A stretch of DNA of 64,000 bases from Acidobacteriota bacterium (GCA_014584695.1 JACTMI010000016.1:1-64000); one strand, 5' to 3'; positions 47,838 through 58,471 are shown, counted from the stretch's first letter. Notes: a model not told the origin generated them from the sequence alone. Made by a program: numbers and translations.

Positions 47838-50363
<2,526 letters not shown>

Positions 50364-50391
50364 GAGCAGAAGGGTCCGGGCGCCGCTCGCC

Positions 50392-51240
50392 GTGAAACCG
50401 CGCTGGACCCGGGTCCTTCTCGCCGTGCTGCTGGTCGGGCAGCTGTTCCTGCTCGCGGCGCAGACGCCGGCGCGCGGCGGCGACCCCCAGACGCTGCTCG
50501 CGTCGGTCACCTTGCGCCTGCTCGGACCGTTCGCCCGCCTCTCCGCGGCGACGGGCGAGGCCGTGCGCGGCGCGCGCGAGGCGACCCGCGGCCGGGCGGC
50601 GCTGGCGCGCGAGAACCGGCGCCTGCGCGAGGAGCTGCTCGAGCTGCGGCGGGACCGCCTGCGCCTGGCCGCGCTCGAGCAGGAGGCGACGGCGCTCGCC
50701 CGCGGCGTCGATTTCGCCCGCGAGTCGCCCTGGCGCCTGCGCGCGGCCGAGGTGGTCTACCTCGATCACGCCTCCTGGTTGAAGACCATGCTGCTCCACG
50801 TCGGCCCCGCGGGCGCCCGCCTCGACCAGCCGGTGATCACCGAGGCCGGCGTGGTCGGCCGGGTGATCGGCGCGGCCGGCGGCTACGCCAAGGTGCAGCT
50901 CGTCACCGACGGCGCCGCCCACGTCGGCGCGGTGCTCGAGCGGGCGCGCCGCCAGGCGATCGCGCGCGGCGCCGGCGCCGGACGGATGACGCTCGAGTTC
51001 GTGCCGCGCCAGATCGCGGTCGAGGTGGGCGACCGCGTCCTGACCGCCGGCATCGACGGCGTCTACCCGCGCGGCATCCCGCTCGGCACGGTTTCGAGCG
51101 TCGCCCCGGGCAGCGAGCTGTTCCACGCCATCGAGATCGAGCCGGCGGCCGACCTGGCACGGCTCTCTTTCGTCTACCTGATCGAGCGCGAGACGCCGCC
51201 CGCGGCGCTGCGCTCCGAGGCCGGCGATGGCCTTCGCTAA
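50392..51240 (+). CDS. mreC: Rod-shape-determining protein MreC
   Basis: The 282-residue protein has one N-terminal membrane helix (VLLAVLLVGQLFLLAA). A coiled coil (~60-100, LARENRRLREELLELRRDRLRLAALEQEA) and the periplasmic beta domain follow (RAAEVVYLDHASWLKTMLLHVG, PVITEAGVVGRVIGAAGGYAKVQLVTD, GDRVLTAGIDGVYPRGIPLGTV). MreC bridges MreB/MreD to PBP2 and activates it. Start is GTG 50392. The stop overlaps mreD by 14 bp. Confidence 0.95.
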   Translation: MKPRWTRVLLAVLLVGQLFLLAAQTPARGGDPQTLLASVTLRLLGPFARLSAATGEAVRGAREATRGRAALARENRRLREELLELRRDRLRLAALEQEATALARGVDFARESPWRLRAAEVVYLDHASWLKTMLLHVGPAGARLDQPVITEAGVVGRVIGAAGGYAKVQLVTDGAAHVGAVLERARRQAIARGAGAGRMTLEFVPRQIAVEVGDRVLTAGIDGVYPRGIPLGTVSSVAPGSELFHAIEIEPAADLARLSFVYLIERETPPAALRSEAGDGLR

Positions 51241-51745
51241 GTTCCTCGCCGCCCTCGCCGTCGCGGTCCTGCTCCACCTGGCGGGGACGCGCGTCGAGCC
51301 GCTCTTCCCGCTCGCCGTCGACCTGTTCCTGCTGGTCGCGCTGCTCGAGGCGCGCCACGGCCGTCCCTCCGGCGCCATGCTGGCGGGACTCGCCGCCGGG
51401 CTGGTGGCGGACGGCCTGACCGGCGGCCCTTACGGCCTGTTCGGGTTCGCCAACACCGCGGTCGGCTACGGCGTGGCGCGAGCCGCCCAGCAGCTGGTCG
51501 TCCAGCGGTCGACCTCGCTCGCCGCCGTTTTCGCCGCCGGCGCGGCCGCCCAGCAGGCGATCCTCGCCGGGTTGGCGCTCGTCTTCCGGCCGGGCGCCGA
51601 GCTGGCCGGGCCGGAGTGGCTGCTCGCCAAAGTCGCCACGACGGCGCTCGCGGGTCTCGCCTGGACGCGCGCGGTCGAGCGGCTCGCCGGCGGCCTGGCG
51701 CGGCGCCGAGCCGGGCGCGCGAAGCCGATGGAGCTGCCGAAGTGA
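51227..51745 (+). CDS. mreD: Rod-shape-determining membrane protein MreD
   Basis: The 172-residue integral membrane protein is built of five or six hydrophobic helices (FLAALAVAVLLHLAG, PLAVDLFLLVALLEA, GAMLAGLAAGLVADGLTGGPYGLFGFANTAVGYGVA, AVFAAGAAAQQAILAGLAL). The length, the GLVADGLTGGPYGLFGF segment and the position between mreC and PBP2 identify it. It completes the MreBCD scaffold. It overlaps mreC by 14 bp and precedes the PBP2 gene by 52 bp. Confidence 0.92.
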   Translation: MAFAKFLAALAVAVLLHLAGTRVEPLFPLAVDLFLLVALLEARHGRPSGAMLAGLAAGLVADGLTGGPYGLFGFANTAVGYGVARAAQQLVVQRSTSLAAVFAAGAAAQQAILAGLALVFRPGAELAGPEWLLAKVATTALAGLAWTRAVERLAGGLARRRAGRAKPMELPK

Positions 51746-51797
51746 GCGGCGCGGGCTTGCCCTGGCGCCTCGACGGCGATAGAAGCGGGGCGTGGCG

Positions 51798-53585
51798 ATG
51801 AGAGTCGGCGAGCACCGGGAGGTCCTGGCGGCGCGGGTGCAGCTGCTGTCGCGGCTGGCGACGGTGACCCTCGCCATGATCGCCGGCGCTTTCTGGTACG
51901 TGCAGGTGCTCCAGGGGAGCCACTTTCGGCAGCTGGCCGAGAACAACCGGCTGCGCAAGCTGGCGGTCGAGGCGCCGCGCGGCACCGTCTACGACCGCCA
52001 CGGCCGCGTGCTGGTCGAGGATCTGCCGAGCTACAACCTGACCCTCGACCGCAGCCGCGGGCGCTCGGTGCCCGACAGCCTCCGCTTCGCCGCCGGCATC
52101 CTGGAGCGGCCGGTCGAGGAGCTCGAGCGGGTGGTCGAGCGCTACCGCGGGGTGGCGCCCTTCCAGCCCGTGCTGCTGGCCGAGGGGCTGACGCTGCCCG
52201 AGGCCGCGCGCTTCCGCGTCGCCGAGCTCGAGCACCCGGAGTTCGAGATCCAGGTCACCCACCGCCGCCTCTATCGCCTGGGCAGCCATGCCGCTCACGT
52301 GCTGGGCTACCTGGGCGAGGTCCGCGCCGAGGAGATCGCCCGGCCGCAGAGCCCCTACCGGAGCGGCGACCAGATCGGCCGCCGGGGGGTCGAGCGAGCC
52401 TACGATCGGCGGCTGCGCGGCCAGGCCGGGGAGCAGGTGGTGGTGGTCGACAGCCGCGGGCGTCCCGTCGAGCAGTTGGGCCGCGCCGTCGGCCGGCCGG
52501 GCGAGCCGCTGCGGCTCACCCTCGACGCGACGCTGCAGCAGGAGGCCGAGCGCCTGCTCGAAGGTCAGGTCGGCGCGGTGGTGGCGCTCGATCCGCGCGA
52601 TGGCGCCGTGCGGGCGCTGGTCTCGGCGCCCGCCTACGACCCCAACCTGTTCGCCCGTCGATTGGCGGTCGAGGACTGGCAGCGGCTGGTCTCCGACCCC
52701 TTCCACCCGCTGCAGAACCGGGCACTCCAGAGCGCCTACTCGCCGGGCTCGGTGTTCAAGGTCGTGGTCGCCGCCGCGGGCCTCGCGGAAGGGGTGGTGA
52801 CGACGGCCGACGGCGTCTACTGCAACGGCTCCGCGCAGCACTACGGCCGCCGCTTCCACTGCTGGCGCGCCGGTGGCCACGGCTGGGTCGATCTCGAGCG
52901 CGCGCTCGAGGTCTCCTGCGACGTCTACTTCTACGCGCTCGGCCAGAAGCTCGGCATCGAGCGTCTCGCCGAGTATTCGCGGCGATTCGAGCTCGGGCGC
53001 CCGACCGGGATCGACCTCGAGGGGGAGAAGACCGGCCTGGTGCCCGACCCGGAGTGGAGCCGGCGGGTGCGCCGCCACCCATGGTATCCGGGCGAGACGA
53101 TCTCGGTGGCGATCGGGCAGGGAGCGCTGCTGACCACGCCGCTCCAGGTCGCGACGATGATGGCGGCGATCGCCAACGGCGGCCGGCTGGTGACGCCGCA
53201 TCTGGTGGCCGGCGCCGAACTGGCGGCGCCCCGCAGGCTGGATCTGCCGCCGGGGGTGCTCGAGCCGATCCGGCGCGGCCTCTGGCGTGTCGTCAACGGC
53301 GGCGGCACCGGCGCCACCGCGCGCGTGCCGGGCCTCGAGGTGGCGGGCAAGACCGGGACCGTCCAGGTGATCGCGCACGAGGCCTACCAGGACACCAGTC
53401 AGCTGCGGCGGGAGCATCGCAATCACGCCTGGTTCGCCTCCTACGCCCCGGCGGCCGCGCCGCAGCTGGTGGTGGTCGTCTTCCTCGAGCACGGCGGGCA
53501 GGGCTCGCGCGCCGCCGCGCCAGTCGCGAAAGCTCTCTATGAGACTTTCTTCCAACCCGATCTCGGCGTCGCTCCCAATACCTGA
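51798..53585 (+). CDS. mrdA: Penicillin-binding protein 2, elongasome transpeptidase
   Basis: PBP2 cross-links new peptidoglycan during elongation, partnered by RodA. The 595-residue protein has an N-terminal membrane helix (ATVTLAMIAGAFWYVQV). A class B dimerisation domain follows (NRLRKLAVEAPRGTVYDRHGRVLVEDLPSYNL, GYLGEV, RRGVERAYDRRLRG). In the transpeptidase domain the active-site S318-V-F-K321 sits in SAYSPGSVFKVV, S373-C-D and K518-T-G (AGKTGTVQ) complete the triad, and HAWFASYAP closes it. I chose ATG 51798; GTG 51792 adds two residues. The 3' end overlaps rodA by 47 bp. Confidence 0.96.
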   Translation: MRVGEHREVLAARVQLLSRLATVTLAMIAGAFWYVQVLQGSHFRQLAENNRLRKLAVEAPRGTVYDRHGRVLVEDLPSYNLTLDRSRGRSVPDSLRFAAGILERPVEELERVVERYRGVAPFQPVLLAEGLTLPEAARFRVAELEHPEFEIQVTHRRLYRLGSHAAHVLGYLGEVRAEEIARPQSPYRSGDQIGRRGVERAYDRRLRGQAGEQVVVVDSRGRPVEQLGRAVGRPGEPLRLTLDATLQQEAERLLEGQVGAVVALDPRDGAVRALVSAPAYDPNLFARRLAVEDWQRLVSDPFHPLQNRALQSAYSPGSVFKVVVAAAGLAEGVVTTADGVYCNGSAQHYGRRFHCWRAGGHGWVDLERALEVSCDVYFYALGQKLGIERLAEYSRRFELGRPTGIDLEGEKTGLVPDPEWSRRVRRHPWYPGETISVAIGQGALLTTPLQVATMMAAIANGGRLVTPHLVAGAELAAPRRLDLPPGVLEPIRRGLWRVVNGGGTGATARVPGLEVAGKTGTVQVIAHEAYQDTSQLRREHRNHAWFASYAPAAAPQLVVVVFLEHGGQGSRAAAPVAKALYETFFQPDLGVAPNT

Positions 53586-54681
53586 TTCGCGCCCGCGCCT
53601 GGCGGCGCTGGCGTCGATCCGGTGGGGGCTGCTGGCGGTGGTCGTGGCGCTCTCGGCCATCGGTCTCGCCACCGTGCACAGCGCCTCGGCCGAGTCCCCG
53701 ATCGACTACCTGTATCGCCAGGCGATCTGGGTCGCGGTGGGCTGGGCGGCGATGGTGGTCGTCTTCGGCTTCAGCTATCACACGCTGCTCTCCTGGTCGC
53801 TGCCGCTCTACCTGGCGAGCCTGGCGGCGCTGGCGCTGGTGCTGGTGCTCGGCTACGAGGCCGGGGGCTCCCAGGGCTGGTTCCGGATCGGCTCGGTCGG
53901 CGTGCAGCCCTCCGAGTTCGCCAAGCTGGTCACCGCGCTCTACCTGACCCGCTATCTGGGTGGGCTCTCCCAGCGCGAGCTCCAGCCGCGCCAGATCGCC
54001 ACCGCCTTGGCCATCGCGGCGGTGCCGATGGTGCTGATCGCCCTCGAGCCCGACCTGGGGGGCGCGGCGATGTTCGTGCCCATGCTCGCCGGGATGCTGC
54101 TGGTGGCCGGCGTGCGCCTGCGCCTCCTGGTGACGGCCCTCGTCGCGGCGCTGGCGCTCGGGGCGCTGATCTGGAGCTTCGGCATGCAGCCCTACCAGCG
54201 GCAGCGGGTGGCCACTTTCCTGCAGCCGGCCGAGGATCCGCTCGGGGCGGGCTACCAGGTGCGCCAGTCGAAGATCGCGGTCGGCTCGGGCGAGCTCACG
54301 GGCAAGGGCTACCTGCAGGGGACCCAGAGCCAGCTCCGCTTCCTGCCCGCGCGGCACACCGATTTCATCTTCGCCGTGCTGGCCGAGGAGTGGGGCTTCG
54401 TCGGCGTCGTCGTCGTGCTCGGCCTCTACGGCATCTACCTGGTCAATGCCGGGGCGATCGCGGCCCGGGCCCGCGACCGCCAGGGCATCCTGCTGGTCGT
54501 GGGGCTGACCTCCGTCTTCGCCTTCCACGTCCTCTACAACTCCGCGATGGTGATCGGGCTGGTGCCGATCACCGGCATCCCGCTCCCCTTCCTCTCCTAC
54601 GGCGGCTCCTTCACCCTCGTCAACTACCTCGCCGTCGGGCTGCTCCTGGGCGTCGACTTCCGCCGCTACGTGAACCGCTGA
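53539..54681 (+). CDS. rodA: Peptidoglycan glycosyltransferase RodA
   Basis: RodA is a SEDS-family polymerase that extends glycan strands from lipid II together with PBP2. The 380-residue protein has about ten membrane helices. Family signatures are IDYLYRQAIWVAVG, GSQGWFRIGSVGVQPSEFAKL, ALEPDLGGAAMFVPML, YQVRQSKIAVGSGELTGKGYLQGTQSQLRFLPARHTDFIFAVLAEEWGF and IPLPFLSYGGSF. The WFRIG-x-QPSEF and PARHTDFIF loops carry the conserved catalytic Asp region. Its first 47 bp overlap the PBP2 gene, so the partners are co-translated. Confidence 0.97.
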   Translation: MRLSSNPISASLPIPDSRPRLAALASIRWGLLAVVVALSAIGLATVHSASAESPIDYLYRQAIWVAVGWAAMVVVFGFSYHTLLSWSLPLYLASLAALALVLVLGYEAGGSQGWFRIGSVGVQPSEFAKLVTALYLTRYLGGLSQRELQPRQIATALAIAAVPMVLIALEPDLGGAAMFVPMLAGMLLVAGVRLRLLVTALVAALALGALIWSFGMQPYQRQRVATFLQPAEDPLGAGYQVRQSKIAVGSGELTGKGYLQGTQSQLRFLPARHTDFIFAVLAEEWGFVGVVVVLGLYGIYLVNAGAIAARARDRQGILLVVGLTSVFAFHVLYNSAMVIGLVPITGIPLPFLSYGGSFTLVNYLAVGLLLGVDFRRYVNR

Positions 54682-54737
54682 CCCCGCGGCCATGCCCGGG
54701 GAGAGGATAGGCTCGCGGCAGGAGCGAGCGCGCCGCG

Positions 54738-56288
54738 ATGTCCCAGAAAATGCTGATCGAGAGCGACCCGTACGAGACGCGCATCGCGCTGCTCGAGTTC
54801 GACCGCGTGACCGAGGTCCATCTCGAGCGCCGCCATCACCGCGGGGTGGTGGGCAACGTCTACAAGGGGCGGGTGACGCGGGTGCTGCCCGGCATGCAGG
54901 CGGCGTTCGTCGACATCGGCCTCGAGCGCGACGCCTTCCTCTACGTCGACGATGTCATCGACACCGCCGCGGCCGAGGAGGCGATGGAGACTGTGGGGGG
55001 CGCGTCCGAGGAACGGCTGGATCCGGCGCCGCCGCTCGCCGTGGAGGGCGAGGAGGGAGCCGACCTGGTGCCGCCGCCCGCCCCGCCGCCTTCGATCGAC
55101 AGCCTGCTCAAGGCCGGCCAGGAGCTGCTGGTGCAGGTCACCAAGGACCCGCTGCCCAACAAGGGGGCGCGGGTGACGACCCAGATCACGCTGCCCGGTC
55201 GCTTCCTGGTGCGCATGCCGACGGTCGGGCACCTCGGCGTCTCGCGCCGGATCGAGAACGAAGCGGAGCGCCAGCGCCTCAAGGAGTTGCTGGAACAGAT
55301 CGCCGATGGCGCGGGCGGCTGGATCGTGCGCACCGCCGGCGAGGACCACGATCTCGCCGACTTCGTGGCCGACCGCGACTACCTGAACGGCCTGTGGGAG
55401 CGAATCCGGCATCGGGCCGAGTCCGGCGGCGTGCCGCTGCTCGTCCACCAGGACCTGGACCTCGCGCTGCGGGTGGTCCGCGACCACTTCTCGGCCGACT
55501 TCTCGGTGCTCTGGGTCGACGGCGAGGAGACCTACACTCGAATCGTCGAGTTCCTGGACCAGGTGCAGCCGGTACTGGTGCCGCGGGTCAAGCTCGATCG
55601 CGAGGAGCGACGGCTGTTCGACCGCTTCGGCATCGACCGCGAAATCGAGGCGGCGCTCAAGCCGAAGGTCTGGCTCCGCTCGGGCGGCTACCTGGTCATC
55701 AATCCGACCGAGGCGCTGGTCGCCATCGACGTCAACACCGGCCGCTACGTCGGCGTGCGCAATCTCGAGGAGACCGCGCTCGCCACCAACCTCGAGGCGG
55801 TCGAGGAGGTGGTGCGTCAGATCCGGCTGCGCGACCTGGGCGGCATCATCGTGCTCGACCTGATCGACATGGTCGAGAAGGAGCACCGCGAGCGCGTCTT
55901 CGAAGCGCTCGAGCGCGAGCTGCGCAAGGACCGGGCGAAGTACAAGGTGCTGTCGATCTCGGAGTTCGGCCTGGTCGAAATCACCCGCAAGCGGAGCCGC
56001 TCGAACCTCGAGCGGCTGCTGACCCAGACCTGCCCCTACTGCGAGGGCAGCGGCCGCATCCCGTCGCTCGCCACGATCTGCCTGTCGCTGCGCCGTGCCG
56101 CCCTGCGGCTGCGCGGCACCGTCGGCTCGAAGGAGCTGCTGCTGCGCGTCCATCCCGACGTCGCGCGGGCGCTCCAGGGCGACGAGCGCCAGATCGTGGC
56201 CGAGCTGGCGCGGGAGCTCGGCGCGGCGATTCTGGTCCAGGCCGACGCCAAGCTGCACCACACCGGCTTCGATATCCTCGAAGTGTGA
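54738..56288 (+). CDS. rng: Ribonuclease G/E-family endoribonuclease
   Basis: This Mg-dependent endoribonuclease acts in rRNA maturation and mRNA decay. The 516-residue protein has an N-terminal S1/RNase-H-like region (LEFDRVTEVHLERRHHRGVVGNVYKGRVTRVLPGMQAAFVDIGLERDAFLYVDDV). An acidic, Pro-rich insert (~80-120) splits the S1 domain, as in other RNase E/G proteins. The DNase-I-like catalytic domain has LVAIDVNTGRYVG and GGIIVLDLIDM (the two catalytic Asp) and the zinc-link CPYCEGSGR. Length fits RNase G, with no RNase E scaffold tail. Its gene often follows the mre operon. The stop overlaps the next start by GTGA. Confidence 0.94.
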   Translation: MSQKMLIESDPYETRIALLEFDRVTEVHLERRHHRGVVGNVYKGRVTRVLPGMQAAFVDIGLERDAFLYVDDVIDTAAAEEAMETVGGASEERLDPAPPLAVEGEEGADLVPPPAPPPSIDSLLKAGQELLVQVTKDPLPNKGARVTTQITLPGRFLVRMPTVGHLGVSRRIENEAERQRLKELLEQIADGAGGWIVRTAGEDHDLADFVADRDYLNGLWERIRHRAESGGVPLLVHQDLDLALRVVRDHFSADFSVLWVDGEETYTRIVEFLDQVQPVLVPRVKLDREERRLFDRFGIDREIEAALKPKVWLRSGGYLVINPTEALVAIDVNTGRYVGVRNLEETALATNLEAVEEVVRQIRLRDLGGIIVLDLIDMVEKEHRERVFEALERELRKDRAKYKVLSISEFGLVEITRKRSRSNLERLLTQTCPYCEGSGRIPSLATICLSLRRAALRLRGTVGSKELLLRVHPDVARALQGDERQIVAELARELGAAILVQADAKLHHTGFDILEV

Positions 56289-58471
56289 GCCCGCTCTTCA
56301 CCGTCGAGGGCTTCCGGGGCGAGGCCGCGGCGGCGTTCGAGGTCGCGGATCCCGGCGCCGAGGCGCTGCGGCTGCTCGATCCCGGCGTCGCGCTCGACAC
56401 CCTGCACTGGGGTCGCAACTACCTCTACCGGGCGCGCGTCGACCTCCGGCACGGACCGCTCGAGGTGGTGGTCAAGCAGTTCCGGCACGGCTCTCGCGGC
56501 GCCCGCCTGAGACGCCGCCTGTCCGGCGACAAGGCGGCCAAGAGCTGGCGGATCGCCCACGCCCTCGCGGCCGCTGGCTTCGAGACGCCGGAGCCGCTGC
56601 TGCGGCTCGAAGCCGAGGCCGCGGACGGGCCGTCGCTCTACGTCACCCGATTCCTGCCGGGCCGGACCGAGCTGCGCTATCCGCTGCGGGCGCGCAACGC
56701 CGGCGAGGAGGCGGCGCGCTTCCCGGGGCTCGATTTCGGCGCCCTGATCGCGGCGGTCGCGCGCCTCGCGCGGCGGCTCCACGACGCCGGCTTCTGGTTT
56801 CGCGACTTCTCGGTCGGCAACCTCCTGGTCGATCTCGAGGCGGCGGCCGCCGGCGCCGCGCCGGCGATCGCCCTGGTCGACCTCAACCGCTGCCGGCAGC
56901 TCGCGGCGGTGTCGACCCGGGCGCGAATGCGCGACCTGGCCCGGCTGCCGCTCGACCGCGCCGAAGACCGCGACCGCCTGCTCCAGGCCTACTTCGGCGG
57001 CAGCCCCCCCGCCGGCGCGGCGCTCGCCTACGGCGCGACGCGCGCCGCTTTCCACGGCCGCCATCGGCTCAAGCGCCGCCTGCGCGGCACGCTGGCGACG
57101 CTGCGCTCGTGGCTGGTGCCGCGCGGCGCGCACGCCCACATCCCGAAGCCGCCGGCGGGGGCGGGCGCGCGCGACAAGATCGTCTGGGACCATCTCTCGG
57201 ACCAACCGCACTCCCACGCCGGGCGGCTCGAGCGGACGCTGGTCCGGATCGCCGACCTGCCGAGCCACCTGCGCACCTGGAGCGCGCTCGCCGGCGCCTT
57301 GCCGCGCATTCGGCGCGCCTACCGCGAGCTGGTCGCGGCGCGCGGGCGCGCGCCGTTTTCCTGGCCCGCGGCGGGCGTCGGCCTGCGCCCCGATCCGCGG
57401 CGGCCGGACGAGCTGCTGGCGGCGTTCGGGGAGCTCGGTCTGCGGCGGGCGCTGCTGCGCCTCCACCCCTGGCAGCGCGAGCACGACGCCGAGGAGGAGC
57501 TGGCGCGCGAGCTCGCCGGCCGCGGCGTGGAGCTCGCTTTCACCCTGCCGCAGAGCCGCGAGCTGGTGCGCGACCCGGCGCGCTGGCGCGCCGCCGTGAC
57601 CGAGTTGGGCGAGCGCTTCCTGCGCTACGGCCGTTGGGTCCAGATCGGACAGGCCATCAACCGCAGCAAGTGGGGAATCTGGAACTACGACGAGTACCTG
57701 GAGCTCGCCGCCGCGGCGGCCGAGATCCTGCGGCGGATCGAGCCCCGGGTCGAGCTCGCCGGACCCGCGGTGATCGACTTCGAGCTCCACGTGACCGCCG
57801 CGGTCGCCAACCGGCGGCACCCGACGCTGCGCTTCGACCGGCTCGCGAGCCTGCTCTACGTCGACCGTCGCGGCGCGCCGGAGAACCGCCAGCTCGGATT
57901 CGACACCGTCGACAAGGTGACTTTGGCCGCCGCGATCGCGGCCTCGGCGCGACAGATCGGGCGGCCGGCGAGCTGGATCTCGGAGGTCAACTGGCCGCTG
58001 CGCGAGGGCCCCCACTCGCCGGCCGGCCGCGCGGTGGCGGTCGACGAGGAGACGCAGGCCGACTATCTCGCCCGCTACTTCCTGCTCGCCTACGGCAGCG
58101 GCTGGGTCGAGCGGATCGACTGGTGGCAGCTCGCCGCGCGCGGCTACGGTCTGGCGGACCCGCAGCCCGACGGGGGGCTCCGCCGCCGCCCCGCCTTGCG
58201 GGCGCTGGCGGCGCTCGAGCGGCGGCTGGCCGGCACCTTCTGCCACGGCGCGGCGCCGGCGCCCGCGGGGGCTCGGTGGCTCCGCTTCAGCCGGCCGGAC
58301 GGCAGCGAGGTGTGGGCCGGCTGGTCCCTCGCCGGCGCGGTCGCGGCCCGCCTGCCGGCGCCGCCGGCGCGCGCCTTCGACCGCGGCGGCGAGCCCCTGG
58401 CGCCGCCGGTCGGCGAGCGCGTCGAGCTGCTGCCGTCGGTGCGCTACTTCGAGCTCGCGCCGGGAGGGTAG
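56285..58471 (+). CDS. Fusion of a lipopolysaccharide-kinase-like domain with a glycoside-hydrolase-like barrel
   Basis: The 728-residue protein starts at GTG 56285, overlapping the rng stop. Residues ~35-270 form a WaaP/KdkA-like kinase: nucleotide-binding Lys64 in EVVVKQFRHG, catalytic-loop WFRDFSVGNLLVD (D174, N179) and DFG-equivalent ALVDLNRCR (D199). After an Arg-rich linker (~270-310), residues ~340-660 look like a beta/alpha barrel. It has LRLHPWQREHDAEEELARELAGRGVELAFTLPQ, VQIGQAINRSKWGIWNYDEY (N459) and SWISEVNWPLREGPHSPAG with E567, the usual position of a retaining glycosidase nucleophile. No signal peptide or membrane segment is present, so both domains would be cytoplasmic. The kinase call is good; the barrel call is inference. 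Substrate is unknown, perhaps a surface-glycan precursor. Confidence 0.7.
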   Translation: MSPLFTVEGFRGEAAAAFEVADPGAEALRLLDPGVALDTLHWGRNYLYRARVDLRHGPLEVVVKQFRHGSRGARLRRRLSGDKAAKSWRIAHALAAAGFETPEPLLRLEAEAADGPSLYVTRFLPGRTELRYPLRARNAGEEAARFPGLDFGALIAAVARLARRLHDAGFWFRDFSVGNLLVDLEAAAAGAAPAIALVDLNRCRQLAAVSTRARMRDLARLPLDRAEDRDRLLQAYFGGSPPAGAALAYGATRAAFHGRHRLKRRLRGTLATLRSWLVPRGAHAHIPKPPAGAGARDKIVWDHLSDQPHSHAGRLERTLVRIADLPSHLRTWSALAGALPRIRRAYRELVAARGRAPFSWPAAGVGLRPDPRRPDELLAAFGELGLRRALLRLHPWQREHDAEEELARELAGRGVELAFTLPQSRELVRDPARWRAAVTELGERFLRYGRWVQIGQAINRSKWGIWNYDEYLELAAAAAEILRRIEPRVELAGPAVIDFELHVTAAVANRRHPTLRFDRLASLLYVDRRGAPENRQLGFDTVDKVTLAAAIAASARQIGRPASWISEVNWPLREGPHSPAGRAVAVDEETQADYLARYFLLAYGSGWVERIDWWQLAARGYGLADPQPDGGLRRRPALRALAALERRLAGTFCHGAAPAPAGARWLRFSRPDGSEVWAGWSLAGAVAARLPAPPARAFDRGGEPLAPPVGERVELLPSVRYFELAPGG

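Follow-up and report, generated by a model that had tools for sequence, protein, structure and literature searches.

The closest described relatives of the protein analyzed here are sugar kinases acting on LPS and glycosidases of family GH39. WaaP (RfaP), the heptose(I) kinase of Pseudomonas aeruginosa (PDB 6dfl), acts on the inner core in the cytoplasm and requires K51, D163 and D188 for function (PMC6147952), and the Kdo kinase KdkA belongs to the same Kdo/WaaP Pfam family. PslG, a GH39 endo-glucanase of P. aeruginosa (PDB 9g17, 5bx9 and 4zn2), uses Glu276 as nucleophile and Glu165 as acid/base (PMC11912335) and is a biosynthetic glycosidase encoded within a cluster (PMC9075953, PMC11912335). 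In Bacteroides cellulosilyticus, the GH39 enzyme solved as PDB 5jvk carries an intact ELWNEPN motif, and its solved chain contains no kinase. PslG is not known to have a kinase partner. A further system, WbdD, couples a kinase to a methyltransferase in LPS assembly and sets O9a chain length (PMC3482155).

We analyzed a window of 64,000 nucleotides from an Acidobacteriota bacterium, in which one gene of the plus strand (56285..58471, 728 aa) joins a kinase of the WaaP type to a GH39-like barrel. Its GTG start at 56285 overlaps the TGA stop of rng at 56286-56288 (GTGA), as the initial annotation had described, and the reading frame is open throughout. The gene is the last in the order mreBCD-PBP2-RodA-rng, all on the plus strand: mreB (49371..50363, start approximate; PF06723, E 9e-146, residues 491-814 of the ORF 47901-50363), mreC (50392..51240), mreD (51227..51745), the PBP2 transpeptidase gene (51792..53585) and rodA (FtsW/RodA/SpoVE, 53539..54681), the last four assigned by Pfam, followed by rng (RNase G, 54738..56288; PF10150, E 1.7e-97, and NCBIfam ribonuclease G). 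An ORF at 49145-50395 was rejected as a gene; it is Arg-rich and lies out of frame over mreB, which itself is in the ORF 47901-50363. The very high GC content also leaves the frame of the fusion gene open for 531 codons upstream of its start, through rng (54692-58471, plus strand); long spurious ORFs in other frames, such as 49145-50395, occur often in this region.

The fusion ORF is nevertheless a real gene and not a chance reading frame, since 57 of the 59 relatives sampled from its order encode it, in most cases over the full length and with 45-68% identity, since a pattern-based scan of genome contigs independently found 43 genome loci, and since the residues named below are invariant. In a quick tree of 64 rows, the kinase-barrel fusion formed one clade. 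No homologue was found on plasmids or viral contigs; phyla other than Acidobacteriota were covered only through the pattern-based scan. The adjacency to rng that had been noted for this gene is conserved, with the end of rng no more than 300 nt ahead of the fusion in 33 of the 43 loci. Other fused loci have housekeeping neighbours, such as LepA, AlaRS and a T2SS-type ATPase, and several fused copies lie away from mre. Placement in the cell-shape operon is specific to the lineage; the functional context that is conserved is synthesis of the LPS core.

The N-terminal domain (residues 1-290; 56285..57154, plus strand) was assigned to the Kdo/WaaP-type sugar kinases by Pfam, Foldseek and its invariant residues. 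Residues 75-222 match PF06293 (Kdo/WaaP) with an E value of 1.8e-10 and 41.1 bits, above the gathering score of 21.3, and the predicted kinase fold matches WaaP 6dfl with a Foldseek E value of 7e-11 and 25% identity. The domain is marked by K64, E129, the (F)RD motif at 172-174, N179, DLN at 199-201 and R202, so that the catalytic Lys (K64), the HRD Asp (D174) and the DFG-equivalent Asp (D199) are all present; they correspond to K51, D163 and D188 of WaaP. Additionally, R202 aligns with the substrate-loop R191 of WaaP in a motif alignment of DLN-R with DLH-R. The WaaP/KdkA-like kinase with K64, D174, N179 and D199 that had been proposed from the sequence is therefore confirmed at the level of family and fold, and these four residues, together with E567 of the barrel, are invariant in 26 homologues. 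Fold, Lys, HRD and DLH/DLN positions, substrate-loop Arg and the context of a cytoplasmic inner-core kinase are common to WaaP (PMC6147952) and the fusion. They differ in that His168 of WaaP is replaced in the fusion kinase by Asn179, the residue also present in protein kinase A, that the window's copy reads FRD instead of HRD, and that the fusion alone carries a barrel. The scores against the NCBIfam equivalogs for the WaaP heptose(I) kinase (43.2 bits, cut-off 170) and the KdkA Kdo kinase (21.4 bits, cut-off 142) fall far under their thresholds.

The C-terminal part begins with a linker motif (residues ~293-328; 57161..57268, plus strand) containing W301 and SDQPH at 305-309. This segment matches the start of stand-alone barrel proteins, and Q307 and P308 are both present in 83 of 84 distinct barrels, a set in which, here and below, the window's own is counted twice. 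Because a sequence search of the PDB with the barrel gave just a weak match to 5jvk (E 0.008), a fold comparison was needed. The AlphaFold2 model of the barrel part, built with 33 homologues, reached a pLDDT of 92 and a pTM of 0.92 and predicts eight strands forming a barrel, with a beta-sandwich after it (residues 329-728; 57269..58468, plus strand), in agreement with the (beta/alpha)8 fold of clan GH-A and the C-terminal sandwich of the GH39 type. By way of this model, the best structural match was GH39 5jvk (Z 34.1, rmsd 2.7, 343 residues), despite an identity of 14%, and PslG 9g17 matched with a Z of 32.3 and an rmsd of 3.0 over 357 residues (Foldseek E 6e-20 to PslG; ~21% identity), with the same barrel, sandwich and nucleophile position. 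GH30, GH51 and other GH-A entries scored lower (Z 25-28). This is in good agreement with the earlier proposal of a barrel-like, glycosidase-type domain. Residues ~300-728 of the window's protein have no match in Pfam or NCBIfam, and none of the 33 members matched PF01229 (Glyco_hydro_39) at E values up to 10. Weak Pfam matches of single members (Amidohydro_2 and others) were discarded, as they are common to few members and the fold is that of GH-A.

The active site of this barrel is unusual. Profile alignment with hhalign to a GH39-like WNEPN set from the same phylum (probability 97.65) placed QIGQAIN over IWNEPN and WISEVNW over WLTETGW. This register comes from a broader profile (A3) aligned with the nine-member GH39-like set and is consistent with the motifs; a fused-only profile shifted the strand-4 loop, and its register was not used. 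Glu567 (codon 57983..57985, plus strand; WISEVNWPL) sits in a beta-strand where strand 7 ends, the place of the nucleophile in clan GH-A, and is kept in 83 of the 84 barrels; the glycosidase-style Glu proposed after SWIS is thus at a catalytic position. At the strand-4 loop (G455-Q-A457-I-N-R-S-K-W-G464; 57647..57676, plus strand), where GH-A enzymes have the acid/base Glu of the NEP motif and PslG has Glu165 (PMC11912335), the fusion has Ala457, also in 83 of 84, the single exception lacking both Glu567 and Ala457. The INRSKWG segment (458-464) singled out by the initial annotation is thus present and belongs to the acid/base loop, but a glycosidase that remodels glycans is not established, as Ala457 replaces the Glu. 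Since this loss of the canonical acid/base is conserved, the domain is unlikely, as far as the sequence can tell, to be a plain glycosidase.

The rest of the site is strongly conserved. R460, D498, E500 and R528 are invariant (84/84) and D527 is present in 83/84; D498, E500 and D527 lie near the C-terminal ends of strands 5 and 6. Invariant residues make up 31 of 79 positions on the catalytic face compared to 2 of 76 on the opposite face. Because invariant residues crowd the catalytic face and E567 is retained, we conclude from this conservation that the barrel is not a decaying relic, although it is not a standard glycosidase either.

Outside the order, the two domains are encoded separately. 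In more distant Acidobacteriota lineages, kinase and barrel are adjacent, co-directional genes, in most split loci in the order GT4-kinase-barrel-SAM methyltransferase, beside which lies a divergent operon for a heptosyltransferase, a WaaL-like ligase, a PHP protein and an HldE-type heptose kinase. In the locus tested, HldE domain I scored 379 bits against TIGR02198, above the cut-off of 345. The split kinase of one such locus (L105) scores best to KdkA, with 44 bits, a match below the 142-bit cut-off and in a different genomic context. Two neighbours of the split clusters are also conserved: a PHP/CehA-McbA-like metallohydrolase between the WaaL-like ligase and the HldE-type kinase (L105:14538-15761, plus strand, and equivalents), and an SH3-domain protein of ~400 aa (L105:6763-7977, plus strand, and equivalents). 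The fusion is therefore conserved across the order, while other lineages have separate genes, yet side by side in LPS-core clusters. This weakens the idea of an obligatory fusion and strengthens that of a functional pair. The envelope-glycan role proposed earlier is likewise favoured, by analogy with these split homologues.

One genome (G200) encodes the fusion in reverse, with the barrel first and the kinase last (L113:8949-11147, plus strand), next to a heptosyltransferase (GT9) and an ABC exporter. In this protein (L113/L101), which was extremely divergent in the quick tree, both barrel catalytic residues are lost (GSTPNRSRW and FCTHVCW), and the kinase is still fused. In four loci (L111, L186, L187 and L193), grouped as family f16, the barrel stands without an adjacent kinase; most of these genomes encode a 263-aa kinase relative elsewhere, and none of that strength was found in G406 and G472.

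Across 396 genomes, a strong barrel match was found in 44, of which 43 also had a strong kinase match, and five had the kinase without the barrel; this co-occurrence was counted by hand at E < 1e-30, and the genomes are related, so that the counts are not independent events. G406 lacks a close kinase. The window's own genome encodes a Kdo transferase, two GT9 proteins and, beside a GT9 protein, an HldE-like kinase scoring below its cut-off, and because of these genes, the organism likely makes Kdo/heptose LPS. The maximum mean hydropathy over 19-residue stretches of the fusion protein was 1.76, inside the kinase domain, and no strongly hydrophobic stretch was seen, which is consistent with a predicted cytoplasmic location.

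We therefore favour, with a probability of about 0.6, a cytoplasmic module for LPS core modification, in which a sugar kinase and a GH39-like barrel lacking the acid/base act on the same core glycan. The WaaP/KdkA-type kinase would phosphorylate heptose or Kdo of nascent lipid A-core at the inner face of the inner membrane; its family and context are given by sequence, fold and gene neighbours, from which we infer the activity and the sugar. The GH-A barrel of GH39/PslG type would most likely bind the same core glycan as the kinase, its sugar-binding face being nearly invariant, with conserved Arg/Lys, Glu567 kept and Ala457 in place of the acid/base. Such a combination is compatible with a leaving group that is already activated, with an acid supplied by another residue, or with a role restricted to binding. 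The barrel may thus carry out nucleophile-dependent glycosyl transfer or cleavage with a leaving group that needs no protonation, for example one that is phosphorylated or otherwise activated, or it may draw on a different conserved acid, for instance D498, E500 or D527; chemistry dependent on the nucleophile seems somewhat more likely than pure binding. A bolder version, which we put forward tentatively and would bet against, makes the barrel a new retaining glycosyl-transfer enzyme of LPS core assembly, physically coupled to the LPS kinase and working without an acid/base on a donor with a phosphate leaving group or on a phosphosugar made by that kinase. For most lineages, the link of the fused form to LPS would be by homology to the split pair, because the fused gene is mostly found within the mre operon or close to housekeeping genes instead of in an LPS cluster. 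The unlinked barrel and kinase of family f16 and the lack of a close kinase in G406 count against this LPS-core module. Moreover, WaaP/KdkA-like kinases can act on other glycans.

The same active site allows other readings. The barrel could be a pseudo-glycosidase without catalysis, which like a lectin would do no more than hold the LPS core for the kinase, in keeping with the Ala in 83 of 84 members and with the reversed fusion, which has dispensed with both catalytic residues. We consider this possible but doubtful, as pure binding has no obvious need of a nucleophile, Glu567 persists in 83 of 84 barrels on a near-invariant active-site face, and the sole member without it is also extremely divergent. 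Conversely, an ordinary retaining or inverting glycosidase that trims a core or O-chain sugar could take its acid from D498, E500, D527 or E533. The conservation of the first three near the ends of strands 5 and 6 would suit it, as would the biosynthetic-cluster glycosidase PslG with the same fold (PMC9075953, PMC11912335); still, none of the four occupies the canonical acid/base position, and we identified no known GH-A member with such an arrangement in this analysis, which makes this explanation unlikely.

Two further explanations start from gene order. The conserved GT4-kinase-barrel-methyltransferase order of most split loci resembles a WbdD-like O-chain terminator, in which the non-reducing end would be capped and the barrel would recognize the chain end; WbdD itself couples kinase and methyltransferase (PMC3482155). 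It differs in having no barrel and in capping a polymer instead of modifying a core. Since the kinase belongs to the Kdo/WaaP family, the divergent operon beside these genes carries a heptose/core set and no methyltransferase was found beside the fused loci examined, we regard such a terminator as quite improbable. A role in peptidoglycan or cell-shape control, suggested by the conserved position behind mre-rodA-rng, is very improbable, given that the split homologues are found within LPS-core clusters and away from mre, that several fused copies are not near mre, and that rng adjacency is lineage-specific. Under the LPS-core module, joining the two parts and setting them behind mreBCD-PBP2-rodA-rng would instead tie, in this lineage, maturation of the core to the growth operon.

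The possibility raised at the outset that the protein is undescribed stands: we found no paper describing a kinase-barrel fusion and, with no matching family in Pfam or NCBIfam, neither the kinase/GH39-like-barrel pairing nor a barrel family lacking the acid/base is described in the libraries and papers searched, although both folds are known. An LPS-type kinase is here joined to a GH39-like barrel family for which Pfam and NCBIfam hold no model. That the two parts work together has strong genetic support: they are fused in either order, are neighbours in the split loci, and co-occur almost completely. Should the barrel be catalytic without an acid/base, outer-membrane glycolipid assembly would include an unusual enzyme. 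The fusion would also make LPS core biosynthesis in the little-studied Acidobacteriota accessible to direct experiments.
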